Shown here piece after piece: positions 3,911-33,120 of a stretch of DNA of 64,000 bases. The notes beneath the pieces were generated by a model that was not told the origin of the DNA, did not search any database, and was given only the letters and a program-made list of their open reading frames with translations. Source of the DNA: Dehalococcoidia bacterium (GTDB lineage Bacteria; Chloroflexota; Dehalococcoidia; Bin125). The DNA is taken from the NCBI GenBank assembly GCA_022825855.1, contig JAJDWB010000002.1, forward strand, positions 124,001 to 188,000. The letters run 5' to 3'. A program made the position numbers and the translations under genes. The stretch's first letter is position 1. Each line of letters starts with the position of its first letter.

Positions 3911-4668
3911 GCGGGTTTTGTCGCCAGTTCGGCGGCGCGGCGGAAGATGGCGGCGAGCATGTCCTCGGTGAGGAGTCCGGTAAAGGTGTTGCGCTGGCTG
4001 GGGTGGTAGGAACAAAGCAGGGTCAAAGGTCCTGCTTGGTGTTCGAGTCCGTGAGCGAACCTGGGTCGTGGGCGTATGCCGAGTTCCCGTGCGGTGTTTT
4101 CCCAGGCGTAGGAGCCGAGGCAGACGATCACGCGCGCTTCCTTGAGCATTGTGAGTTCTCGCCTGAAGTAGTCGAGGCAGCGGTCGCGTTCATCGGTCGT
4201 GGGCTTGTTGTCGGGTGGAGCACAACGGACGACTGAGGTGATGCGCGTGGCGAGCAGGTCCAGACCGTCGTCAATGGAGGTCGACTCGGGCTGATTGGCC
4301 AGGCCGGCCAACCAGAGCGCGCGGTAGAGCCAGTCGCCCGAACGGTCGCCGGTGAACATGCGTCCGGTGCGGTTTGCGCCGTGGGCCGCGGGGGCGAGTC
4401 CGACGACCAGGATGCGGGCGTTGGCGGGTCCGAACGAGGGAACGGCGCGGCCCCAGTACTCCTGGTCGCGGAAGGCGGCGCGCTTCTCGGTTGCCGCCTG
4501 TTCGCGCCAGTGCACGAGGCGAGGGCAGCGCCGGCAGTCGGCGACGTCGCGATCGAGTTCGGCGATGTCCGCGCGGATGGGGTTGGAGTTCACGTTGCGG
4601 ATTTCAAGTTTACGAACCTGCGGTGTGGCGAACCCGTGTGCCGTTACATATTGAGGGTACGAGTCCAT
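3907..4668 (-). CDS. udgB: Family 5 uracil-DNA glycosylase (UdgB-type)
   Basis: A Fe-S uracil-DNA glycosylase that removes uracil and related deaminated bases from DNA as the first step of base-excision repair. From the chosen start, motif A is GLAPAAHGANRTGR (residues 90-103) and motif B is HPSQRNTFTG (222-231), both diagnostic for family 5. The Ala-Ala in motif A, where other families have a catalytic acid, is typical of this family. Four cysteines suited to a [4Fe-4S] cluster are Cys45, Cys48, Cys149 and Cys164. The frame stays open much further upstream, but that part overlaps the divergent membrane-protein gene. ATG 4668 is used; ATG 4689 and GTG 4593 are alternatives. Confidence 0.85.
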   Translation of the reverse strand: MDSYPQYVTAHGFATPQVRKLEIRNVNSNPIRADIAELDRDVADCRRCPRLVHWREQAATEKRAAFRDQEYWGRAVPSFGPANARILVVGLAPAAHGANRTGRMFTGDRSGDWLYRALWLAGLANQPESTSIDDGLDLLATRITSVVRCAPPDNKPTTDERDRCLDYFRRELTMLKEARVIVCLGSYAWENTARELGIRPRPRFAHGLEHQAGPLTLLCSYHPSQRNTFTGLLTEDMLAAIFRRAAELATKPA

Positions 4669-4687
4669 CCACAGCAGGCGAGAGGCC

Positions 4688-5371
4688 ATGACCGAGATTA
4701 GATCAACTCCTCCTGGCGCCCTGGCAAGAACTCTGCATCGCGGGACCCGCGCGCCCAGAAACAGATACTTCGAGCGGCTCGAGTCGCCGGTCGACTGGCG
4801 GCGGGCGCTGAGTCTGTACCGTCGGCTGCTGGCCGGCGATCTGAGCGTGTTGCGGGATGCGGCGCGGACCGAGTCGGACACGGGCCCGGCGGCGCTGGTG
4901 CTGGTCCTGGGCGTCCTGACGGCCAGCCTGGGCTCCTGGTTGTGGATGGTGATCGAGACGCACGGCACGCTCGTCGGGGATCCGGCGCTGCGCGTGCTGC
5001 TGTTGGGTACGCTGGCCACGATCGGCGGTTGGGGGCTGTGGACGGGACTGACCTGGCACGCGCTGCGATCGATTTTCCAGGTCGAGGTCGAGTTCTTGGC
5101 GCTGGCGCGCGCGCAGGCGGTGGCCGGGGGGTTCGCGATCTGGCAGTTCTTCATGATCGCCGGACCGGCGAGTTTCGCCGTCGGGCTGGTGACGACGCTG
5201 GCCGGGTTCCTGCTGGCGATCCTGGCGGTGCGTGCGTCCGCGCCCGATGCGGACGACCGAGCGGCGGTGATCAGCGTGGGGATCGGCTTCGCGGTCTACG
5301 CGCTGGCGCTCTCGCTGCTGGGCGATCTGGCCCGCGTCGGTTCGGGCATCTTCGTCCACGCCCTGGGCTAA
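4688..5371 (+). CDS. Multi-pass membrane protein, YIP1-like
   Basis: A 227-residue protein with a soluble N-terminal part of about 65 residues followed by about five hydrophobic segments (around residues 68-88, 100-125, 145-160, 163-185 and 195-217). The layout resembles bacterial Yip1-domain proteins, but no catalytic motif is visible. It starts head to head with the glycosylase gene, so the two probably share a compact divergent promoter region. Its stop overlaps the stop of convergent pyrE by 3 bp. Function unknown. Confidence 0.6.
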   Translation: MTEIRSTPPGALARTLHRGTRAPRNRYFERLESPVDWRRALSLYRRLLAGDLSVLRDAARTESDTGPAALVLVLGVLTASLGSWLWMVIETHGTLVGDPALRVLLLGTLATIGGWGLWTGLTWHALRSIFQVEVEFLALARAQAVAGGFAIWQFFMIAGPASFAVGLVTTLAGFLLAILAVRASAPDADDRAAVISVGIGFAVYALALSLLGDLARVGSGIFVHALG

Positions 5372-5955
5372 GTGATCGTCAGTTCGACGCCGGCGTCGCA
5401 GAGGGGGCAGTCGGCGGGGTCGTAGCTGGCGACGTTGATGGCGAGGCAGGCGAAGAGGTCGAGATTGCCGAAGCTGGTGGCGCCGTTGGTCCGGTCGACC
5501 ACGAGTCCGACGCCGACGGGCTGTCCTCCGGCGGCGGTGACCGCGTCGAGCGTGTCCTGGACGGATCCGCCAGTGGTGAGCACGTCGTCGACGACGAGGA
5601 TGCGCTGGCCGGGCTCGACGGCGAAGCCGCGGCCGATGTAGCGGCCGCCGGTGTCGGCCCGCTCGGCGAAGTAGGCGTTGATTCCGTCGCCCAGGTGCTT
5701 GGCCGTTTCGTGCGCGAGCAGGATGCCGCCGGTGGTCGGTCCGACCACGATCTCCGGCTCCACGGGTCGGAAGTGCTCGGCGATCCGGCCGCAGAGGGCC
5801 TCGGTGACACGCGGTTTCTCGAGCAGGCGGAACTTCTCGATGTAGGTGTCGCCGTGGCGTCCCGAGGCGTACTGGAAATGACCCGTGAGAACCGCGCCGG
5901 CATCTTCGAGCATGCGCATCGCGTCGGCCTGTCCGCCGGGTGCGTCGTCGCTCAT
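5368..5955 (-). CDS. pyrE: Orotate phosphoribosyltransferase
   Basis: Transfers the phosphoribosyl group of PRPP to orotate to give OMP in de novo pyrimidine synthesis. The 195-residue length is normal. The PRPP-binding loop VVDDVLTTGGS is at residues 121-131, preceded by the GPTTGGILLA segment near 72-81. The C-terminal segment has a CPLCDAG pair typical of the thermophile-type PyrE group. The gene lies directly after lepB with an ATGA overlap (lepB stop inside the pyrE start), so the two are co-transcribed. No other pyr gene is present in the window. Confidence 0.93.
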   Translation of the reverse strand: MSDDAPGGQADAMRMLEDAGAVLTGHFQYASGRHGDTYIEKFRLLEKPRVTEALCGRIAEHFRPVEPEIVVGPTTGGILLAHETAKHLGDGINAYFAERADTGGRYIGRGFAVEPGQRILVVDDVLTTGGSVQDTLDAVTAAGGQPVGVGLVVDRTNGATSFGNLDLFACLAINVASYDPADCPLCDAGVELTIT

Positions 5956-6566
5956 GGCACGATGTTCCCCTCGTAATCGACAGTCTGCCGGGAGATATCG
6001 CTGCTGATCCGGTCGAACGGGAACCAGCGGAACATGACTTCGCCGACGATCTGGTCCTCGTGGATGGGACCGAATGCGTGCGAGTCCTGGCTGCTGTTGC
6101 GATTGTCACCGAGCACGAAGTAATGCTCGGGCGGGATCACGGCGGGTCCCCACTGGTAGCCGGGCGGCTCGATGATGTAGTCGTGCTCGTTCAGTTCGAC
6201 GCCGTTGACGAAGACGCGACCGGCGGAGACCTCGACGGTGTCGCCGGGCAGGCCGATCACGCGCTTCACGAAGTCGTGCGCGCTCTGGTAAGGCGGGCGG
6301 AAGATGATCACGGAGCCTCGATGGGGGCCGGAGAGGAGGAAGTCGCCATTGCTGCGTCCGGGCAGCAGGGCGTCGAAGGGGCCGAGGTCGACCTCCCAGT
6401 AGCCGATCTTGTTGACGAGGACGAGTTCGGAGCTGGCTAGGGTGGGCTGCATCGAGCGGCCCTCGACCTGGAAGTTCTGGACAGCTTCGCGGGCGAGGAG
6501 AAAGACGATCAGACCGAGAATCGCGGTCTCGATGATCTCCCGCAGGGCACCGTGTTGCAGGCTCAT
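5952..6566 (-). CDS. lepB: Signal peptidase I
   Basis: A 204-residue type I signal peptidase that removes N-terminal signal peptides at the outer face of the cytoplasmic membrane. One membrane anchor spans residues 11-30. The catalytic Ser38 is in EGRSMQPTL and the general-base Lys101 in VKRVIGLPGD. The C-terminal box is FVLGDNRNSSQDSHAFG. The chosen ATG at 6566 gives normal length; the frame stays open far upstream but would run through the divergent gene. It is the first gene of a two-gene unit with pyrE. Confidence 0.93.
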   Translation of the reverse strand: MSLQHGALREIIETAILGLIVFLLAREAVQNFQVEGRSMQPTLASSELVLVNKIGYWEVDLGPFDALLPGRSNGDFLLSGPHRGSVIIFRPPYQSAHDFVKRVIGLPGDTVEVSAGRVFVNGVELNEHDYIIEPPGYQWGPAVIPPEHYFVLGDNRNSSQDSHAFGPIHEDQIVGEVMFRWFPFDRISSDISRQTVDYEGNIVP

Positions 6567-6647
6567 ACGGTCGAGCTTATCCCGCCTTACCATGGTCGAG
6601 AGGACGCAGATTCGCGGTGTCAAGCGAGCGTTAACGGAGTCTCGGCC

Positions 6648-7583
6648 ATGCGAGCGATTCGGCTCTCGACGGACGGTCCGATCATCCGGCCCGACATGGA
6701 TGCGAGGATGGGCGCCAACATCAACGGTCCATCGCTGATCCGCGCGCCCGAGTGGCTGCCCGAACGGCTGGGCGAGTTCTATCTCTACTTCGCCGATCAC
6801 AAGGGTTCGTACATCCGCCTGGCCTACGCCGATCATCTGCTCGGTCCCTGGCGGACTTACGAGCCGGGGGCGCTGCGATTGGATCAGACGCCGTTTCCCA
6901 AATCCGTCGAGGAGTTCGATCCGAAGCTGGAGCAGGCCATGCAGCAGGGCTGGGTCTATCCGCATGTGGCCTCGCCCGAGGCGGTGGTGGATCACGAGGC
7001 GAGGCAGATCCGGCTGTACTTTCACGGGCAGTTGCGCGAGGGCCCTCAAGTGTCTCGTGCGGCCACATCGAGCGACGGTATCGACTTCCGGGCGCGCGAC
7101 GAGGTGCTGTCGACGAGTTACCTGCGGGTGGTCCGTCTCGATGACGTTGACGAGCCGGGCTGGTACGGGATGTCGATGCCCGGCATCCTCTACCGCTCCG
7201 ACGACGGCCTGTGCGGGTTCGAGCGCGGTGCGCAATTGTTCCCGGACACGATGCGCCACTGCGCGCTGCTGCGCCGCGGCGAGACGCTGTACGTATTCTG
7301 GACGGTTGCCGGAGACGCTCCGGAGCGGATCTATGTCTCGCCGATTACGCTGGACGGCGACTGGCGCTCGTGGACGGCGGGCGAGCGGCGTGAGTTGCTG
7401 CGTCCCGTCTACGAGTGGGAGGGCGCGCAGCTGCCTATCGCGCCCAGCGTGCGCGGCTTCGCTCCCCAGCCCGTGCACGAACTGCGCGATCCGGCCGTGT
7501 TCGAGGACCGCGGCGAGACCTATCTGCTGTACACGGTGCAGGGCGAACGCGGGATCGCGATCGCCCGGCTGGATGAGTTCTGA
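6648..7583 (+). CDS. Glycosyl hydrolase 43/68-like five-bladed beta-propeller protein
   Basis: A 311-residue protein with the repeated blade pattern of the GH43/62/68/117 clan: GEFYLYFADHKG early, YPHVASPEAVVDHEARQIRLYFHG in the middle, MPGILYRSDDG, and a C-terminal HELRDPAVFEDRGETYLLYT segment. The usual clan acids are plausibly represented by Asp in HELRDPAV, but I cannot assign all three catalytic residues. It has no signal peptide, so it would act in the cytoplasm. ATG 6648 has CGGAG upstream. It stands at the head of the tetrapyrrole genes with a 41 bp gap. Whether it hydrolyses a glycoside is unproven. Confidence 0.7.
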   Translation: MRAIRLSTDGPIIRPDMDARMGANINGPSLIRAPEWLPERLGEFYLYFADHKGSYIRLAYADHLLGPWRTYEPGALRLDQTPFPKSVEEFDPKLEQAMQQGWVYPHVASPEAVVDHEARQIRLYFHGQLREGPQVSRAATSSDGIDFRARDEVLSTSYLRVVRLDDVDEPGWYGMSMPGILYRSDDGLCGFERGAQLFPDTMRHCALLRRGETLYVFWTVAGDAPERIYVSPITLDGDWRSWTAGERRELLRPVYEWEGAQLPIAPSVRGFAPQPVHELRDPAVFEDRGETYLLYTVQGERGIAIARLDEF

Positions 7584-7624
7584 GCACGTTCCGAGCAATC
7601 TCTGGGCAAGGCCGCGGCGACGAC

Positions 7625-8287
7625 GTGACCCGACCGTACTATCCCGTCTTCTTCGACCTGCGCGGGCGTCCGGCGCTGGTGATCGGCGGCGGACGGCTGG
7701 CGCTGGAGAAAGTCGAGGGTCTGCTGGTGGCGGAGGCCTGCGTCAGCGTGGTAGCGCCAGAATTGAACGACGGCTTGCGCTCGCTTGTGGACGACGGTCG
7801 GATTACGCACATTGCACGTGAGTATGAGCGCGGCGACATGCGCGGGATGACGGTCGTGATGGCGGCGCGCGACGAGGCTGCGGGCAACGCGCTGCTGCTT
7901 GCAGATGCGCGGGCGCTCGGCGTGCCCTTGAACGCCGCGGACGATCCCGAGCACTGCGATTTCATCCTGCCGGCGGTGGTGCGCCAGCCGCCATTGACGC
8001 TGGCGATCTCGACCGGCGGCGGCAGCCCGGCGGTGGCTCGGCGGGTGCGGGAGGAGCTGAGCGAGTATCTGGACGCGGAGACGTCGACGATGGCCGACCT
8101 GGCGGCCGAGTTGCGCGGCGAGTTGCGCCGGCTGCATGCGTTCCGGTCGATCGGGGCGGAGGACTGGCAGTCGGCCATGGACGGTCAAGTTCGGATCCTG
8201 CTTGCCCAGCGGCGAAGGGGGCAGGCGAAGGCGCGGCTGCTCGATCGCTTGGGCGCGCCGATTCGCGGGGCGGACCCGGTCTCGTGA
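7625..8287 (+). CDS. sirC: Precorrin-2 dehydrogenase / siroheme synthase N-terminal-type protein
   Basis: A 220-residue NAD-dependent dehydrogenase that oxidises precorrin-2 to sirohydrochlorin, corresponding to the N-terminal module of CysG. The dinucleotide-binding motif GGGRLA lies at residues 21-26, followed by VSVVAPE. The AISTGGGSPAVARRVREEL segment is typical of the family. Translation starts at GTG 7625. Its stop overlaps the hemC GTG start (GTGA), which indicates translational coupling. With the adjacent CobA-HemD protein it would supply siroheme; a separate ferrochelatase (SirB) is not seen here, so it may also insert iron. Confidence 0.88.
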   Translation: MTRPYYPVFFDLRGRPALVIGGGRLALEKVEGLLVAEACVSVVAPELNDGLRSLVDDGRITHIAREYERGDMRGMTVVMAARDEAAGNALLLADARALGVPLNAADDPEHCDFILPAVVRQPPLTLAISTGGGSPAVARRVREELSEYLDAETSTMADLAAELRGELRRLHAFRSIGAEDWQSAMDGQVRILLAQRRRGQAKARLLDRLGAPIRGADPVS

Positions 8288-9180
8288 GCGGGAGGATGCG
8301 GCTGGGCGGTCGAAGCAGCGCGCTCTCGATGGTCCAGGCGGCGCTGGCGACCGAAGCGCTGGCGGCGCTGGAAATCGAGGTCGAGTTCGTGCCGATCCGC
8401 ACCGAAGGCGACCGGGACCGAACATCGAGTCTGCGCGTGATCGGCGGTCAGGGCGTATTCGTGCGGGCGGTCGAGGAGGCGCTGATCGACAGGGAGATCG
8501 ATGTAGCGGTACATTCGGCCAAGGACGTGCCGCCAGTGATCGCAGTGGAGACGTCATTGGCGGCGTACCTGCCCCGAGGCGACGTGAGGGATGCGCTCGT
8601 CAGCCGCGACGGTGCGGGTCTGGGGGAGCTGCCGGCCGGCGCGCGGGTGGGTACCGGATCGCGGCGTCGGGCGGCGCAGGCGCAGTATCTGAATCCGGAG
8701 CTGGATATTGCCGATATCCGCGGGAACGTCGATACGCGGATCGAGAAGATGCTGCAGGGCGAATACGACGCGATCATCGTCGCTGCGGCCGGCTTGGAGC
8801 GGCTGGGACGGGCGGCGTCGGAGTTGCTGCCGATCGATCTGGTCATGCCCTCGCCCGGACAGGGGGCGCTGGTCCTGCAGTGCCGGGTCGAGGATGCGGC
8901 CATGATCGGCGAGATTGATCACCGTCCGACTTCGCTGTCGGTGACCGCGGAGCGGGCCATGCTTCGCGGACTGGGGGCGGGCTGCTCGCTGCCTTTGGCA
9001 GCATTGGGCGGAGTGCGCGGCGGGGAGGTTGTGCTGGCCGGCCGGTTGCTCAGCGGAGATGGGTCGCGGCGAATCGAACTGCAACGTTCGGGCGACGATC
9101 CGGAGGCGGTCGGCGCGGAGGTCGCGGAGACGCTGATGGAACGGGGCGGGGGCGAGTTGCTTGAGCGTGAGAGCGAGTGA
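8284..9180 (+). CDS. hemC: Hydroxymethylbilane synthase (porphobilinogen deaminase)
   Basis: Polymerises four porphobilinogen molecules into hydroxymethylbilane. The 298-residue protein has the HSAKDVP motif with catalytic Asp81, the GTGSRRRAAQ substrate-binding stretch near residues 123-132, and Cys234 in GAGCSLPLAALGG, the attachment site of the dipyrromethane cofactor. It starts at GTG 8284 inside the sirC stop and is followed after 1 nt by the fused CobA-HemD gene, giving a tightly packed operon. Confidence 0.93.
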   Translation: MSGRMRLGGRSSALSMVQAALATEALAALEIEVEFVPIRTEGDRDRTSSLRVIGGQGVFVRAVEEALIDREIDVAVHSAKDVPPVIAVETSLAAYLPRGDVRDALVSRDGAGLGELPAGARVGTGSRRRAAQAQYLNPELDIADIRGNVDTRIEKMLQGEYDAIIVAAAGLERLGRAASELLPIDLVMPSPGQGALVLQCRVEDAAMIGEIDHRPTSLSVTAERAMLRGLGAGCSLPLAALGGVRGGEVVLAGRLLSGDGSRRIELQRSGDDPEAVGAEVAETLMERGGGELLERESE

Positions 9181-28376: not shown

Positions 28377-29615
28377 TCAGATGATGCCGGCCTCGCGCAG
28401 TTCGGCGCGGGCGGCCTCGTCGAGGCCGAGCAGTTCGCCGTAGACCTGGGCGTCGTGCTCGCCGCGATTGGGCACGGGACCGGTGACGGCGGCGGGTGTG
28501 CGGGACAGTTTCCAGGGCGCGCCGGTGTAGAGCGCGCCGTCGCGCAGGGGTGCGGCGACTTCCGCGCCGAGGTCGAGGCCTGCGTAGGAGAGCGCAGCGT
28601 AGTCCTCGTCAATCAGCAGCGAGGTCGGGTCCATCAAGGGGAAGGCGGGCACGCCGCGCGCCTGGAGATCGATGCTCAGCTCCATCGCGTCGTGCTGGCG
28701 GGTCCAGCGCGAGAGCGCCTCGTCGAGCGCATCCTGATCGGCGAGCCGTCCGCGCATGGTCCGCCATTCGTCGCGTTCGAGCTGCGGCGCGAGCCGGCAG
28801 AGCGCGGACCACTCGGCGTCGGTGCGGACGACGACGGCGAGCCAGGCGTCGTCGCCGGCGGCGGGATAGACGCCGTGGGGCGCCATCGCCGAGCCGCGGT
28901 TGCCGCGCGGCTTTGAGTCGCGGCCGTTGAGCAGCCAGTCCATCAGAGGGGCGGCGGCACGCTGGAGGGTCGCTTCGCCCTGGGCGAGGTCGATGAACTG
29001 CCCGCGTCCGGTGCGTTCGCGTTGCTCGAGCGCGGCCAGCAGCGCGACGAAGGCGTGGCCGGCAGCGGTCGGGTCGAGGTCGGCCGTGTCCTCGCGGGGC
29101 TGCGGGTCGTCGGGATAGCCGAGCAGCGACTTGAGCCCGTAGAGCGCGGCGAGCGAGGGGCCGTAGGTGACGAGGTTGCGCCAGGGGCCGTCGGTCGCGC
29201 CCGAAGCGGAGAGGGCGACCATGATGATGCGCGGATTGACCTCGGCGAGGACGTCGTAGGACAGGCCCAGCGAGGGCATTACCCGGGGTGAGAAGTTCTC
29301 CAGGACCACGTCCGACTGCTCGACCAGCCTGAGGTAGAGGTCGCGCCCGCGCGGGTCGCCGAGGTGGATCGAGATCGACCGCTTGCCGCGGTCCAGACCG
29401 TGAAACGCGCGAGGGTCGTCCGGCGAGGTCGAGCCGCGGTCGCCGCCAATCGAACCGACGGGGGCTTGCTGGCCGCCGATCGAGACGCCGGATCGGCGGT
29501 GGGGCGCGCCGACCTTGATCACCTCGGCGCCGAGGTCGGCCAGGAACATGCCCAGCAACGGCCCGGCCCAGACATGGCCGTGGTCGAGGACGCGGAGTCC
29601 AGAGAGCGGAGGCAT
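28377..29615 (-). CDS. CaiB/BaiF family III CoA transferase
   Basis: A 412-residue CoA transferase that would move CoA between carboxylic acids. The N-terminal LSGLRVLDHGHVWAGPLLGMFLADLGAEVIKV pattern, FHGLDRGKRSISIHL, VLENFSPRVMPSLGLSYD, and GRGQFIDLAQGEA are all typical. The catalytic Asp is most likely in the ADLDPTAAGHAF stretch. A His replaces the more usual Thr/Ser in the VLDHGHVWAGP segment. It is the first of three minus-strand genes running to the cupin. The upstream side is a non-coding, T-rich stretch that leads to the methyltransferase island. Confidence 0.85.
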   Translation of the reverse strand: MPPLSGLRVLDHGHVWAGPLLGMFLADLGAEVIKVGAPHRRSGVSIGGQQAPVGSIGGDRGSTSPDDPRAFHGLDRGKRSISIHLGDPRGRDLYLRLVEQSDVVLENFSPRVMPSLGLSYDVLAEVNPRIIMVALSASGATDGPWRNLVTYGPSLAALYGLKSLLGYPDDPQPREDTADLDPTAAGHAFVALLAALEQRERTGRGQFIDLAQGEATLQRAAAPLMDWLLNGRDSKPRGNRGSAMAPHGVYPAAGDDAWLAVVVRTDAEWSALCRLAPQLERDEWRTMRGRLADQDALDEALSRWTRQHDAMELSIDLQARGVPAFPLMDPTSLLIDEDYAALSYAGLDLGAEVAAPLRDGALYTGAPWKLSRTPAAVTGPVPNRGEHDAQVYGELLGLDEAARAELREAGII

Positions 29616-30042
29616 GGTTTGGGAGTCTAGGGCGTGTCGCGTCTCCTCAGGGTGGTTCGGGCGTGGCGGCGTGTTTCGCGGTTTCAGGTTTCAGGCGATT
29701 TTTTTTCTGAGAGCCGATTTCACCGGATCTCCAGCAAAACACTGGTGATCATGCGTTTGGGCTTTCAGGTTTTTTCAGGTTTCTTCAGCCTGTTTCAGGT
29801 TCTGCTTGTTCGATTTTGTTCGATTCAGGACGGGTTTCGGTCGGTTCCCGACGAGGACGTGCGGCGTCGAACGGCGTTGTGCGGAGCTGTTTTGGGTGGT
29901 TGGAAGGGTCACGGTCTGCGGCCTCTCATTGGCGGTGGGAGGTCACATTACCAGAACATGGGTGCGTTAGCGGGAAGTGGTGGGTCAACTGGTTGACGGA
30001 GGCCCTGCGAGTTGTCGGATCGCCTCAACCAAACCCGGCCGT
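29616..30042. other. Non-coding T-rich stretch at the left edge of the methyltransferase island
   Basis: No convincing gene lies here; the short open frames have no family-like sequence or ribosome site. Composition is strikingly T-rich on the plus strand compared with the surrounding genes, with T-tracts and repeated TTTCAGG words. A 10-bp tandem array (29763-29832) is annotated separately. The stretch separates the CoA transferase from the restriction-type genes and could be an insertion boundary. Confidence 0.6.
29763..29832. repeat. 10-bp phased TTTCAGG-type tandem array
   Basis: TTTCAGG begins at 29763, 29773 and 29793, and a variant (CTTCAGC) at 29783, so the unit is 10 bp. The array then continues as a perfect 10-bp tandem of TTGTTCGATT (29806-29825). 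Two further TTTCAGG words lie at 29682 and 29689. Confidence 0.75.
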
Positions 30043-30567
30043 TTAGTCGTCGCCGGCCTCGAACGTGACTTCGCCCTTCTCGATTCGCAGAACAAGGTCG
30101 GCATGATCGGCGACCCAGCGGAACGGCACGCTCTTGCGGAATCTTTGCTGGCTCGGCCTCGAGTACGGCCGCTCAGATTCCCACTCGTCAATGAAGGGAG
30201 CCACTTCGGATCCTGTCGCGACTCTCACTTCGACAAAAGCCAAGTCGTCACGATGCGAGATAAAGATGTGGCCGAACTTTCGGTCTGCGGCCATCTTCTC
30301 TCGCCACGATCTTTTGTGGTACTGATACTCGAACGCGTTGCCGTGCACTGCCGATTTCACTTCGTACTCGGCCAGATCCGGTCCACTTTGGCTCGTGCGG
30401 CCCGGATCGCGAAGGAGGATGGCTGCGAACACCTCCCAGTCTTCAGGCATGACGACTCTGGGCTTGAGGCCGCGTCGACGGAACAATCGGGCGCGACTTT
30501 GCAAAGGCCCGTACATGAAGGCATCGAAGTAGACGATCGCGGCCTCGATGTCCAGAGAATGCGACAT
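30043..30567 (-). CDS. Putative PD-(D/E)XK restriction endonuclease
   Basis: A 174-residue protein of no family I recognise by name. GPDLAEYEVKSA contains an Asp64, Glu69-Val-Lys71 arrangement fitting a PD-(D/E)XK nuclease core; EDWEVF near residue 42 supplies another possible acid. The rest is a compact alpha/beta protein rich in Arg and aromatic residues (FEYQYHKRSWREKM). It starts inside the stop of the Vsr-like gene (TGATG) and is the last gene after a cytosine-5 methyltransferase and Vsr, the usual order of M-V-R type II systems. The role as the cognate restriction enzyme is inferred mainly from position. Confidence 0.6.
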   Translation of the reverse strand: MSHSLDIEAAIVYFDAFMYGPLQSRARLFRRRGLKPRVVMPEDWEVFAAILLRDPGRTSQSGPDLAEYEVKSAVHGNAFEYQYHKRSWREKMAADRKFGHIFISHRDDLAFVEVRVATGSEVAPFIDEWESERPYSRPSQQRFRKSVPFRWVADHADLVLRIEKGEVTFEAGDD

Positions 30568-31031
30568 CACGACCCTCTGTGCAGTTCTATGCCTGAGGGC
30601 GGGTACATCGCGAAGCAACCTCGTGTCGCACTCTCGACGAAGTCCGCGACTGCGGAGACATCGCCATTGACCGCGCGATCGGTCACCCGAATCACGGTCC
30701 AACCGAGGTCGCGCAGCTCGCAGTTGACTCGGCGATCTCGGTCCATGTTTCTTGCGATCTTGGTTCGCCAATACTTGGTCATCTCGGCGTAGCGCTCAGC
30801 AGTGTGTTTCTTGCCGTGCCAGAACTCGCCGTCGACGAAGATGGCGAGTTTGCGTCCGACCATGGCGATATCGGGGCGGCCCGGCGCCTTCTCGTAGTCG
30901 ACGCGATAGCGGAAACCGCGTCGGTAGAGTTCCTTGCGCAGCGCCAGTTCGGGCTTAGTGTCCCTGCTCCGAATTCGGCGCATGGTCTCGGAACGAGCTT
31001 CGGGACTCAGAGTGTCGCGCCGGTTCGACAT
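30567..31031 (-). CDS. vsr: Very-short-patch-repair (Vsr)-like endonuclease
   Basis: A 154-residue protein matching Vsr: TMRRIRSRDTKPELALRKEL, GFRYRVDYEKAPGRPDIAMV (with the catalytic-type Asp of GRPD), IFVDGEFWHG and KIARNMDRDRRVNCELRDLGW. Vsr nicks next to T:G mismatches that arise when 5-methylcytosine deaminates. The zinc-binding Cys residues of E. coli Vsr are not conserved: the G-C-F-W-H motif reads GEFWH, and the later W-E-C position has no Cys. GGAGG lies 8 nt upstream of ATG 31031. It follows the methyltransferase by 4 nt. Confidence 0.85.
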   Translation of the reverse strand: MSNRRDTLSPEARSETMRRIRSRDTKPELALRKELYRRGFRYRVDYEKAPGRPDIAMVGRKLAIFVDGEFWHGKKHTAERYAEMTKYWRTKIARNMDRDRRVNCELRDLGWTVIRVTDRAVNGDVSAVADFVESATRGCFAMYPPSGIELHRGS

Positions 31032-31035
31032 ACCA

Positions 31036-32202
31036 TCAGCCTCCGGCGGCGACGGCGTCGAGCGGCTCATTGGCGAAGCGCGTCTGAATCGGTTCGCGCT
31101 GAGAGAATTCACTGAGCAGGAAGCCAAAGGCAGCATCGACCAGCCAACGGACGGCCGGTACGCATACGGCATCTCCGAAGCCGCTCTGGGCCTGTCGGCG
31201 GCCGACCGTGATGGGGAAGTCGCCGGCACCCTGGAGTCGGGCGTACTCGAGTCCGGTGAGGGGGCGAATTCTCGGCTGTCCACTACGACAATCCACGAGG
31301 AACTGGACGCTGCTGCCGCCGTTGGCGGTTCGCAGGCATCCTGCAATGTTGTCGTTTCGGACCTCGCCGACCGTGCGGCCGTGACGCACCCGGCGGTACA
31401 TGGTCGCCACGCCGTCGCGCTTGCCAAGCAGAAGCTCATTGACCCGTAGCGCGTGTCGCTCATGCATCGCACCGCAAAGGGCCTTCACCTGCTCACCTGG
31501 CCACCAAGACTCATCGTCCGGGGGAACGTACTCCAGGACCTGGCTCAGGCGTCGGCTCGCCACTTGTGGTGGTTCCGGCAGGCTGAGCTCGGCAAAAGGA
31601 ACATCCCGGTGCGTGGACTGGAATGAGCGGATGGCTGCGGTTCGCAGTCGGGTCAGGTTGCCAGTCGGCGGGAGCGGGCGCTCGACCAAGTCTTCGCGAA
31701 TCGCCAAGACGAACAAACGTGGCCGACTCTGTGGTGTGAACCACCTCGCATCAACAGCCACCAGATCGAGGAAGTAACCGAGTTCACCGATGCGCGCGCA
31801 GACTTCCGCGAGATCGCGACCCTGGTTCGACGTCACAAAGCCGGTGACGTTTTCCAGCAGCAGCGCCTTTGGCGGGGTTCGTTCGCTCACCAGACCTGCG
31901 GTCAAGTCAAGGAACGGCCAGATCGTTCCCGAATGCTCGCCTGCCAATCCTCGCCTGTTTCCCGCGAGAGACAGGTCGATGCAAGGGAATGACGCCGTTA
32001 GCAAATCGAGGTCGTCGGGAAGGTCTGTCAAGCGCAGGCGGTTGATGTCCTCGACCACGAGGTGATCGTCGCCGAAGCGCGCGCGGTACATCTCCGCCTT
32101 GTCTTCGGCGATGTCGTTGGCGAAGACACAGTCCCAGCCGAGAGGCTCGATTGCCTCTCGAACCAGGCCGATTCCAGAAAAGAACTCTGCGAAACTCGAC
32201 AT
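31036..32202 (-). CDS. DNA (cytosine-5-)-methyltransferase
   Basis: A 388-residue C5 methyltransferase. Motif I is AEFFSGIGLV near the N-terminus, motif IV SFPCIDLSLAG with the catalytic Cys, motif VI LLLENV, motif VIII QSRPRLF and motif X GFGDAVCVPAVRW. The target-recognition region lies at about residues 225-320 and gives no readable specificity. It uses SAM to methylate cytosine in a specific duplex site. The first residues before ATG 32202 are unlikely to be coding. The gene leads a minus-strand unit with the Vsr-like and nuclease genes and is divergent from an MBL-fold gene. Confidence 0.9.
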   Translation of the reverse strand: MSSFAEFFSGIGLVREAIEPLGWDCVFANDIAEDKAEMYRARFGDDHLVVEDINRLRLTDLPDDLDLLTASFPCIDLSLAGNRRGLAGEHSGTIWPFLDLTAGLVSERTPPKALLLENVTGFVTSNQGRDLAEVCARIGELGYFLDLVAVDARWFTPQSRPRLFVLAIREDLVERPLPPTGNLTRLRTAAIRSFQSTHRDVPFAELSLPEPPQVASRRLSQVLEYVPPDDESWWPGEQVKALCGAMHERHALRVNELLLGKRDGVATMYRRVRHGRTVGEVRNDNIAGCLRTANGGSSVQFLVDCRSGQPRIRPLTGLEYARLQGAGDFPITVGRRQAQSGFGDAVCVPAVRWLVDAAFGFLLSEFSQREPIQTRFANEPLDAVAAGG

Positions 32203-32228
32203 CGACCGTCCGATCAGAGCATGACAGC

Positions 32229-32251
32229 ATAATAGCGGTTTGCACATATGT
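32229..32251. promoter_or_regulatory. Methyltransferase promoter and palindrome region
   Basis: On the minus strand TATTAT (32234-32229) lies 27 nt ahead of the methyltransferase start and is a good -10 element. Just upstream is the 8-bp palindrome ACATATGT (32244-32251). The same 90-bp stretch must also promote the divergent MBL-fold gene. No -35 hexamer is convincing. Confidence 0.4.
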
Positions 32252-32295
32252 ACTGTGGGCTATCGCTACGCTGCGTCGGTAGGGAGTCAAGCACT

Positions 32296-33120
32296 ATGCG
32301 GATTACGTTTTGCGGGTCGGGGGCTGGGGGGTCGGTGAATCCTCGGCGGGGGGCTGCTTCGATCCACCTGGCTCATGGGGATGCGCGGATCCTGGTCGAT
32401 ACGGGACCTGGGTTCATGGAGCGGATGGTGGACTCGGGGCTGGATGCGGATGCGGTGTCGGACGTGGTCTTCTCGCACCTGCACTTCGACCACGCGATGG
32501 GCGTGGTGGAGCTGTTCACCCGCCTGATCGTTCGCCGGGGAGCGCCGGTGACGGTGTACGGACCGCGCGACACCGACACGTACATCGAGGCGGCCCTGGG
32601 ATTCGCCCGGGTGAACGCGACCAGCGACTACATCCGCGGCTGGCTGGACGGAGTGAGCGTCGAGCTGACGCGTCCCGGCGACGAGCGAGAACTGCGCGGG
32701 ATGCGCGTGCGCTCGGTCGAGGTGCCGCATGCGCCCTACCTCGAGTGCCTGGCGCGGCGCTTCGAGGCCGGGGGACGCTCGCTGGTCTACAGCGGCGACA
32801 CGACCTACGCGCCCGAGGCGCTGGTCCCGCTGGCCGATGGGGCCGACGTGCTGGTGCACGAGGCGTACACGGAGTCGTGCCTGGCGCGGATGGCGGAGGG
32901 GCTGTCGGAGTCGGCGCGGGCGGGACTGTATCGCGGGGTGGGGGGAACGCACTCGACGGCAGAGTCGGCGGGCCGGATCGCCCGCGACGCCGGCGTGAAG
33001 ACGCTGGTCCTGACCCACATCATGTCGCTGGAGCGCGACTCGGAGCTGGTCGAGGAAGCGCGGCGGGCGTTCGACGGAACGATCGTGCTCGCCGCGGACG
33101 GACTGTCACTGGAAATCTGA
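32296..33120 (+). CDS. MBL-fold metallo-hydrolase (RNase Z/ElaC-like)
   Basis: A 274-residue metallo-beta-lactamase-fold protein. Metal-binding HLHFDH (in VVFSHLHFDHAMGVVEL) and later residues GGTHSTAESAGRIA and LVLTHIMSL supply the expected His and Asp ligands, and YSGDTTYAPE gives the bridging Asp. The HSTAESAGRIARDAGVKTLVLTH pattern is shared with RNase Z and arylsulfatase-type members. It lacks the long exosite of tRNase Z, so a small-molecule ester or phosphodiester substrate is also possible. AGGGAG lies upstream of ATG 32296. A VOC gene follows after 8 bp. Confidence 0.82.
   Translation: MRITFCGSGAGGSVNPRRGAASIHLAHGDARILVDTGPGFMERMVDSGLDADAVSDVVFSHLHFDHAMGVVELFTRLIVRRGAPVTVYGPRDTDTYIEAALGFARVNATSDYIRGWLDGVSVELTRPGDERELRGMRVRSVEVPHAPYLECLARRFEAGGRSLVYSGDTTYAPEALVPLADGADVLVHEAYTESCLARMAEGLSESARAGLYRGVGGTHSTAESAGRIARDAGVKTLVLTHIMSLERDSELVEEARRAFDGTIVLAADGLSLEI

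Follow-up and report, generated by a model that had tools for sequence, protein, structure and literature searches.

Three closely packed minus-strand genes between unrelated metabolic genes raise the question of what the third of them, a 174-residue protein, does beside a DNA methyltransferase and a repair nuclease, and how stable this combination is. They lie in the window, the whole stretch of 64,000 nucleotides from a Dehalococcoidia bacterium that was analyzed here. The preliminary description had proposed a type II restriction-modification (R-M) cassette in the order M-V-R; our data support such a cassette, with a predicted PD-(D/E)XK restriction enzyme as R. The locus is made up as follows.

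28377–29615, minus strand: CoA-transferase family III gene (PF02515, E 3e-81), left flank, a conserved neighbour outside the cassette
29616–29880, no strand: T-rich non-coding dispersed repeat beside the cassette (own-genome matches; seven-species alignment)
30043–30567, minus strand: R, predicted PvuII-fold PD-(D/E)XK restriction endonuclease, 174 aa (AlphaFold2, Foldseek, VIA, alignments)
30567–31031, minus strand: V, Vsr-type (very short patch repair) mismatch endonuclease, 154 aa (TIGR00632, PF03852)
31036–32202, minus strand: M, C5 cytosine DNA methyltransferase, 388 aa (PF00145, E 1.3e-40; TIGR00675 over cut-off)
32203–32295, no strand: divergent intergenic region of 93 bp between M and the metallo-hydrolase gene (sequence)
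32296–33120, plus strand: metallo-beta-lactamase-fold hydrolase gene (PF12706, E 1.1e-23), right flank, a conserved neighbour outside the cassette

The identities given earlier to M and V were both confirmed by curated profiles. M matched PF00145 and TIGR00675 and retains the PC (IV), ENV (VI) and QSRPR (VIII) motifs as well as an intact TRD signature, ExRxDxxAGCLRTxxGGSS; an alternative start is possible at 32247, with the alignment favouring 32202. V scored 123.9 bits against TIGR00632 (cut-off 97.85) and matched PF03852 at E 2.3e-27, and it appears to lack the zinc ligands of E. coli-type Vsr. All three frames are open and intact and are arranged exactly as first described, with a gap of 4 nt between M and V and a one-base overlap (TGATG) between V and R. 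The methyltransferase and endonuclease genes are thus linked in an operon-like trio, a linkage kept at independent loci, and the M-V-R promoter presumably lies within 32203–32295. The cassette is also less GC-rich than its neighbours, as had been claimed: GC is 0.585 in R, 0.613 in V and 0.629 in M compared to 0.722 and 0.697 in the flanking genes and 0.672 in the window, and GC3 is 0.71–0.74 compared to 0.86–0.90 in the flanking genes. No tRNA was found within the window.

R matched no family at E < 1 in Pfam, NCBIfam or PADLOC and none in PHROGs, and single-sequence and profile searches against the PDB returned only noise. To that extent R could indeed not be placed, as the preliminary description held, but its fold places it as a divergent PvuII-like protein. 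An AlphaFold2 model built from seven sequences, the plasmid and phage relatives of R being left out (pLDDT 87.3, pTM 0.85), has an overall fold closest to PvuII. The first 12 Foldseek matches in the PDB were all PvuII (E 1.3e-5 to 2.2e-4), followed by DpnI as the next family (E 1.4e-2), and VIA-align gave Z scores of 10.7 for PvuII and 7.7 for NhoI. At about 16% identity to PvuII, a Z score of 10.7 indicates a shared fold in the model, the function being predicted. Sequence support from hhalign of the R profile with the PvuII sequence was weak (P 7.9e-5), the alignment covering the E-x-K-S core, the strand that carries the His and the recognition segment at the C terminus. One relative of R weakly matched Pfam Endonuc-PvuII (E 0.09); the cut-off of this profile, PF09225, was reached neither by that relative nor by R.

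The Asp-x4-Glu-x-Lys core suspected from the letters alone is real, consisting of D64, E69 and K71, which, like S72, are invariant in all aligned relatives. Conservation extends to the Y81-Q-Y-H84 strand and to W44-E45 and W129, all of them invariant apart from the most distant phage member, in which E45 and W129 are retained. In the predicted structure R has the PD-(D/E)XK core fold with D...E-x-K, and the possibility of a non-nuclease fold, checked by structure prediction, was excluded. On the strength of the Foldseek, VIA and profile alignments with PvuII, R is, as modelled, a sequence-divergent PvuII-fold endonuclease family outside any named family, and it would be expected to cut DNA.

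Relatives of R were found in four phylum genomes, G317 (57% identity), G451, G470 and G486, on Brasilonema and Photobacterium plasmids, in one Rhizonema genome (L002) and on two phage contigs; the viral-contig scans yielded one relative. The cellular members mostly adjoin C5 methyltransferases. Specifically, five independent cellular loci outside the window genus place R next to a related methyltransferase in three gene orders: M-V-R as in the window (G317), HTH-R-M (Photobacterium plasmid) and convergent R and M (Brasilonema, G451, G470). G486 carries degenerate R copies (stop, truncation), one of them beside M fragments. This conserved association already largely refutes the idea that R is a chance neighbour unrelated to M and V; neither of the two phage relatives (L011 3968–4501; L007 3989–4555) lies beside an M gene, as that idea would have it, yet we leave it hardly any probability. 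Beside the R relative in L007, a 595-kb phage genome, lies a 1297-aa ORF (4552–8445) that by eye resembles a ribonucleotide reductase with intein-like insertions.

Another rival reading is decay: the trio could be a remnant with an inactive R, in which M and V work by themselves. Elsewhere the family does degenerate, as in the G486 copies and in the Rhizonema relative, which seems to be frameshifted and lacks a neighbouring M, and six phylum genomes (L104, L105, L108, L109, L110, L111) carry fusions of an N-terminal Vsr to a C5 methyltransferase belonging to the M subfamily, about 540–600 aa long, beside which no R gene was found. The window cassette, however, has three open frames and all catalytic residues of R. 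Moreover, R has diverged from its G317 counterpart (57% identity) about as far as M (61%) and V (62%), as expected for a gene under similar constraint. We consider a decayed cassette improbable.

We compared the site between the flanking genes in 13 congeneric species, all genomes of the genus being drafts. The CoA-transferase gene was matched in all 15 congeners and the metallo-hydrolase gene in 14 of 15, and the two are neighbours throughout the genus. What lies between them varies: M and V with a GIY-YIG nuclease in four species, a GmrSD-type gene in three, non-coding sequence only in five, and nothing in one (G011, with 80 bp between the flanking genes). The five non-coding sites (G001, G002, G005, G010, G012) span roughly 460–500 bp or more, that of G010 being ended by a contig end, and four of them have BLAST-detectable homology to the T-rich flank of the window. 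The GmrSD-type genes of G004, G008 and G013 matched PF03235 at E 1e-26 to 9e-28.

L061 447–2114, L070 566–2239 and L068 1450–3135: GmrSD-type (PF03235) genes at the orthologous site

Because GmrSD-type genes occupy the orthologous position in three congeners, the locus is a variable defence site, or hotspot. The window R was not found in any of the 13 congeners compared, and a check for the trio being syntenic core sequence showed it to be absent from the orthologous site in close relatives. The T-richness noted on the left of the cassette is genuine, but it belongs to a dispersed genome repeat outside the cassette, with 26 partial matches in the genome. This repeat (29616–29880) contains TTTCAGGTT and TTGTTCGGA repeats together with a GATCTCC...GGAGATC hairpin; in the seven-species alignment it is matched at the corresponding site of six congeners, and the cassette is missing from five of these. 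A structured RNA was considered for this stretch and rejected in favour of the dispersed repeat, the covariation term being unfavourable (+1.14); an Rfam scan gave no match near the gathering score.

The four species with a GIY-YIG nuclease show what the earlier reading of the trio overlooked, although the M-V-R cassette itself was borne out: the nuclease gene has been swapped in sister species. In G003, G006, G009 and G014, homologs of the window M (79, 76, 76 and 80% identity, respectively) and V (63–83%) are followed by a GIY-YIG nuclease, which in G009 matched PF01541 over the cut-off. Inside V, nucleotide identity between the window and G006, G009 and G014 is about 0.8, and it drops to about 0.4–0.5 near 30550–30575, the V/R boundary; in G003 homology already decays inside V. 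Judged from where DNA homology ends, R and the GIY-YIG gene have replaced one another in place, with M and V retained. Between the window and G317, R has diverged to about the same degree as M and V. The GIY-YIG gene may therefore have replaced an older partner, the PvuII-fold R, or R may have been regained by the window species; the M tree fits either order. The GIY-YIG cassettes are themselves mosaic, G014 and G009 sharing 89% in the nuclease gene and 77% in M. No direct precedent for replacement of an endonuclease beside a retained methyltransferase was found in the literature covered, subscription papers and REBASE being outside its scope.

Our preferred reading, to which we assign a probability of about 0.82, is that M-V-R is a type II R-M system with Vsr repair, located in a variable defence site, whose R is exchanged as a module. 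By analogy with their families, M would methylate a short sequence at cytosine C5 and so protect the host, and V would nick at T:G mismatches arising from deamination of the 5-methylcytosine made by M. R, presumably a PvuII-fold homodimer, would cut the same sequence when unmethylated in incoming phage or plasmid DNA. With a PvuII-fold gene in the window species and a GIY-YIG gene behind the same M and V in four sisters, both nucleases would be expected to cut the sequence marked by M, since the host depends on M for protection against whichever nuclease is present.

Exchange of partners appears to extend through the M subfamily. In phylum genomes and on plasmids its members are accompanied, often together with V, by GIY-YIG proteins, DUF4928 (PF16280) proteins, the PvuII-fold R or one further unassigned protein.

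L100 4489–5445, L107 2180–3139, L118 1891–2805 and L101 4718–5581: DUF4928 (PF16280) proteins in the place of R beside the M subfamily

The DUF4928 proteins share a conserved QHLVGAKL...GDF...HVT core, with the restriction enzyme EcoT38I as the best, weak match in a fold search (E 5e-3), and they are likely restriction-enzyme partners. When partner labels are mapped onto a maximum-likelihood tree of 37 M sequences, they require 16 changes compared to a minimum of 5; the PvuII-fold label alone requires 6, at least 4 of them forced by strongly supported branches. The signature ExRxDxxAGCLRTxxGGSSxQ of the target-recognition region is kept across partner types, which suggests, short of proof, one recognition sequence common to the subfamily. 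Whether M is a platform of fixed specificity, on which unrelated folds (PvuII-fold, GIY-YIG, DUF4928 and at least one unassigned) have repeatedly been exchanged, converging on one recognition sequence and replacing each other within one operon at one site, we would put at even odds.

Two candidates can be named for this sequence, and the specificity may also be new, as the preliminary description proposed. One is that R is an isoschizomer of PvuII and that the system marks and cuts CAGCTG, with which its PvuII fold is consistent. In sampled contigs, CAGCTG showed the strongest differential depletion of all testable six-base palindromes when congeners that have M were compared to those that lack it (z −4.9; next −2.8). 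Its observed/expected ratio was 0.10 in the window genome, and pooled 0.26 with M versus 0.53 without; with 241 sites versus 2659 for the reversed control, the window genome ranks lowest among 15 species. This signal seemed decisive in the contig samples, but these were uneven (G011 looks richer there than over its whole genome), and counts from whole genomes and across genera weakened it; CAGCTG is for that reason a candidate only. Within the genus the whole-genome ratios gave p 0.01, but related species are non-independent; outside it depletion does not track M, since G317, which carries the same M-V-R, shows no depletion compared with its own genus and genera without M show CAGCTG equally low. 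Each genome also has 2–14 matches to the N4/N6 methyltransferase family, so that another system could cause the depletion. Furthermore, PvuII Asn140/Asn141, DNA-contact positions that include an adenine-reading Asn, correspond in hhalign to F143/R144 of R. We regard CAGCTG as possible, though doubtful. Depletion of CAGCTG was seen in many phylum genomes with or without M (G000–G014, G318, G209, G245, G171), with 35 sites in G318 versus 584 control sites.

The other candidate is CCGCGG, identical to CAGCTG except at positions 2 and 5. An arginine, R144, takes the place of PvuII's adenine-reading Asn in the window protein and in every relative covering this position, which would fit a change from A to G. 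The characterized GIY-YIG type II enzymes Eco29kI, Cfr42I and DraR1 cut CCGCGG (PMC4081073, PMC10855626), and some predicted m5C systems for this sequence include a V gene (PMC10855626). Against it, CCGCGG is only weakly depleted in genomes with M (z −1.9), and sequence searches detected no similarity between the sister GIY-YIG proteins and Eco29kI in the PDB; we think this target unlikely.

The locus offers a natural in-place swap between unrelated nuclease folds in which the methyltransferase and repair gene are retained, and it makes testable how new restriction genes establish without killing the host: a new gene would be tolerable where a methyltransferase is resident and the site is already protected. 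A PvuII-like endonuclease family without a name is defined as well, and the paired PvuII-fold and GIY-YIG enzymes, with the same predicted site, would allow a comparison of how unrelated proteins read one sequence.

R.PvuII (type IIP, PF09225) is the closest known enzyme. R resembles it in fold, in size (174 versus 157 aa), in the D...E-x-K-S core common to both and in a His-containing recognition strand aligned with PvuII His83–85. It differs in its low identity, which single-sequence search misses, in the substitutions at Asn140/Asn141 and in its partner, a C5 methyltransferase with a Vsr gene, whereas the PvuII system has an N4-cytosine methyltransferase and a C protein. Like Eco29kI, Cfr42I and DraR1, the sister-species cassettes pair a GIY-YIG nuclease with a C5 methyltransferase, while the window cassette has a PvuII-fold R. 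Type II m5C R-M systems with a V gene share the operon-like group of C5 methyltransferase, Vsr and endonuclease, but in the window R belongs to an unnamed family and is swapped with GIY-YIG at the orthologous site. ScmA/VsrA of Caulobacter (PMC12907096) likewise link a C5 methyltransferase functionally with a Vsr-like nuclease, although those genes are unlinked and come without a restriction enzyme. What is new here is the R family, and what is notable is that nucleases are exchanged while the methyltransferase stays.
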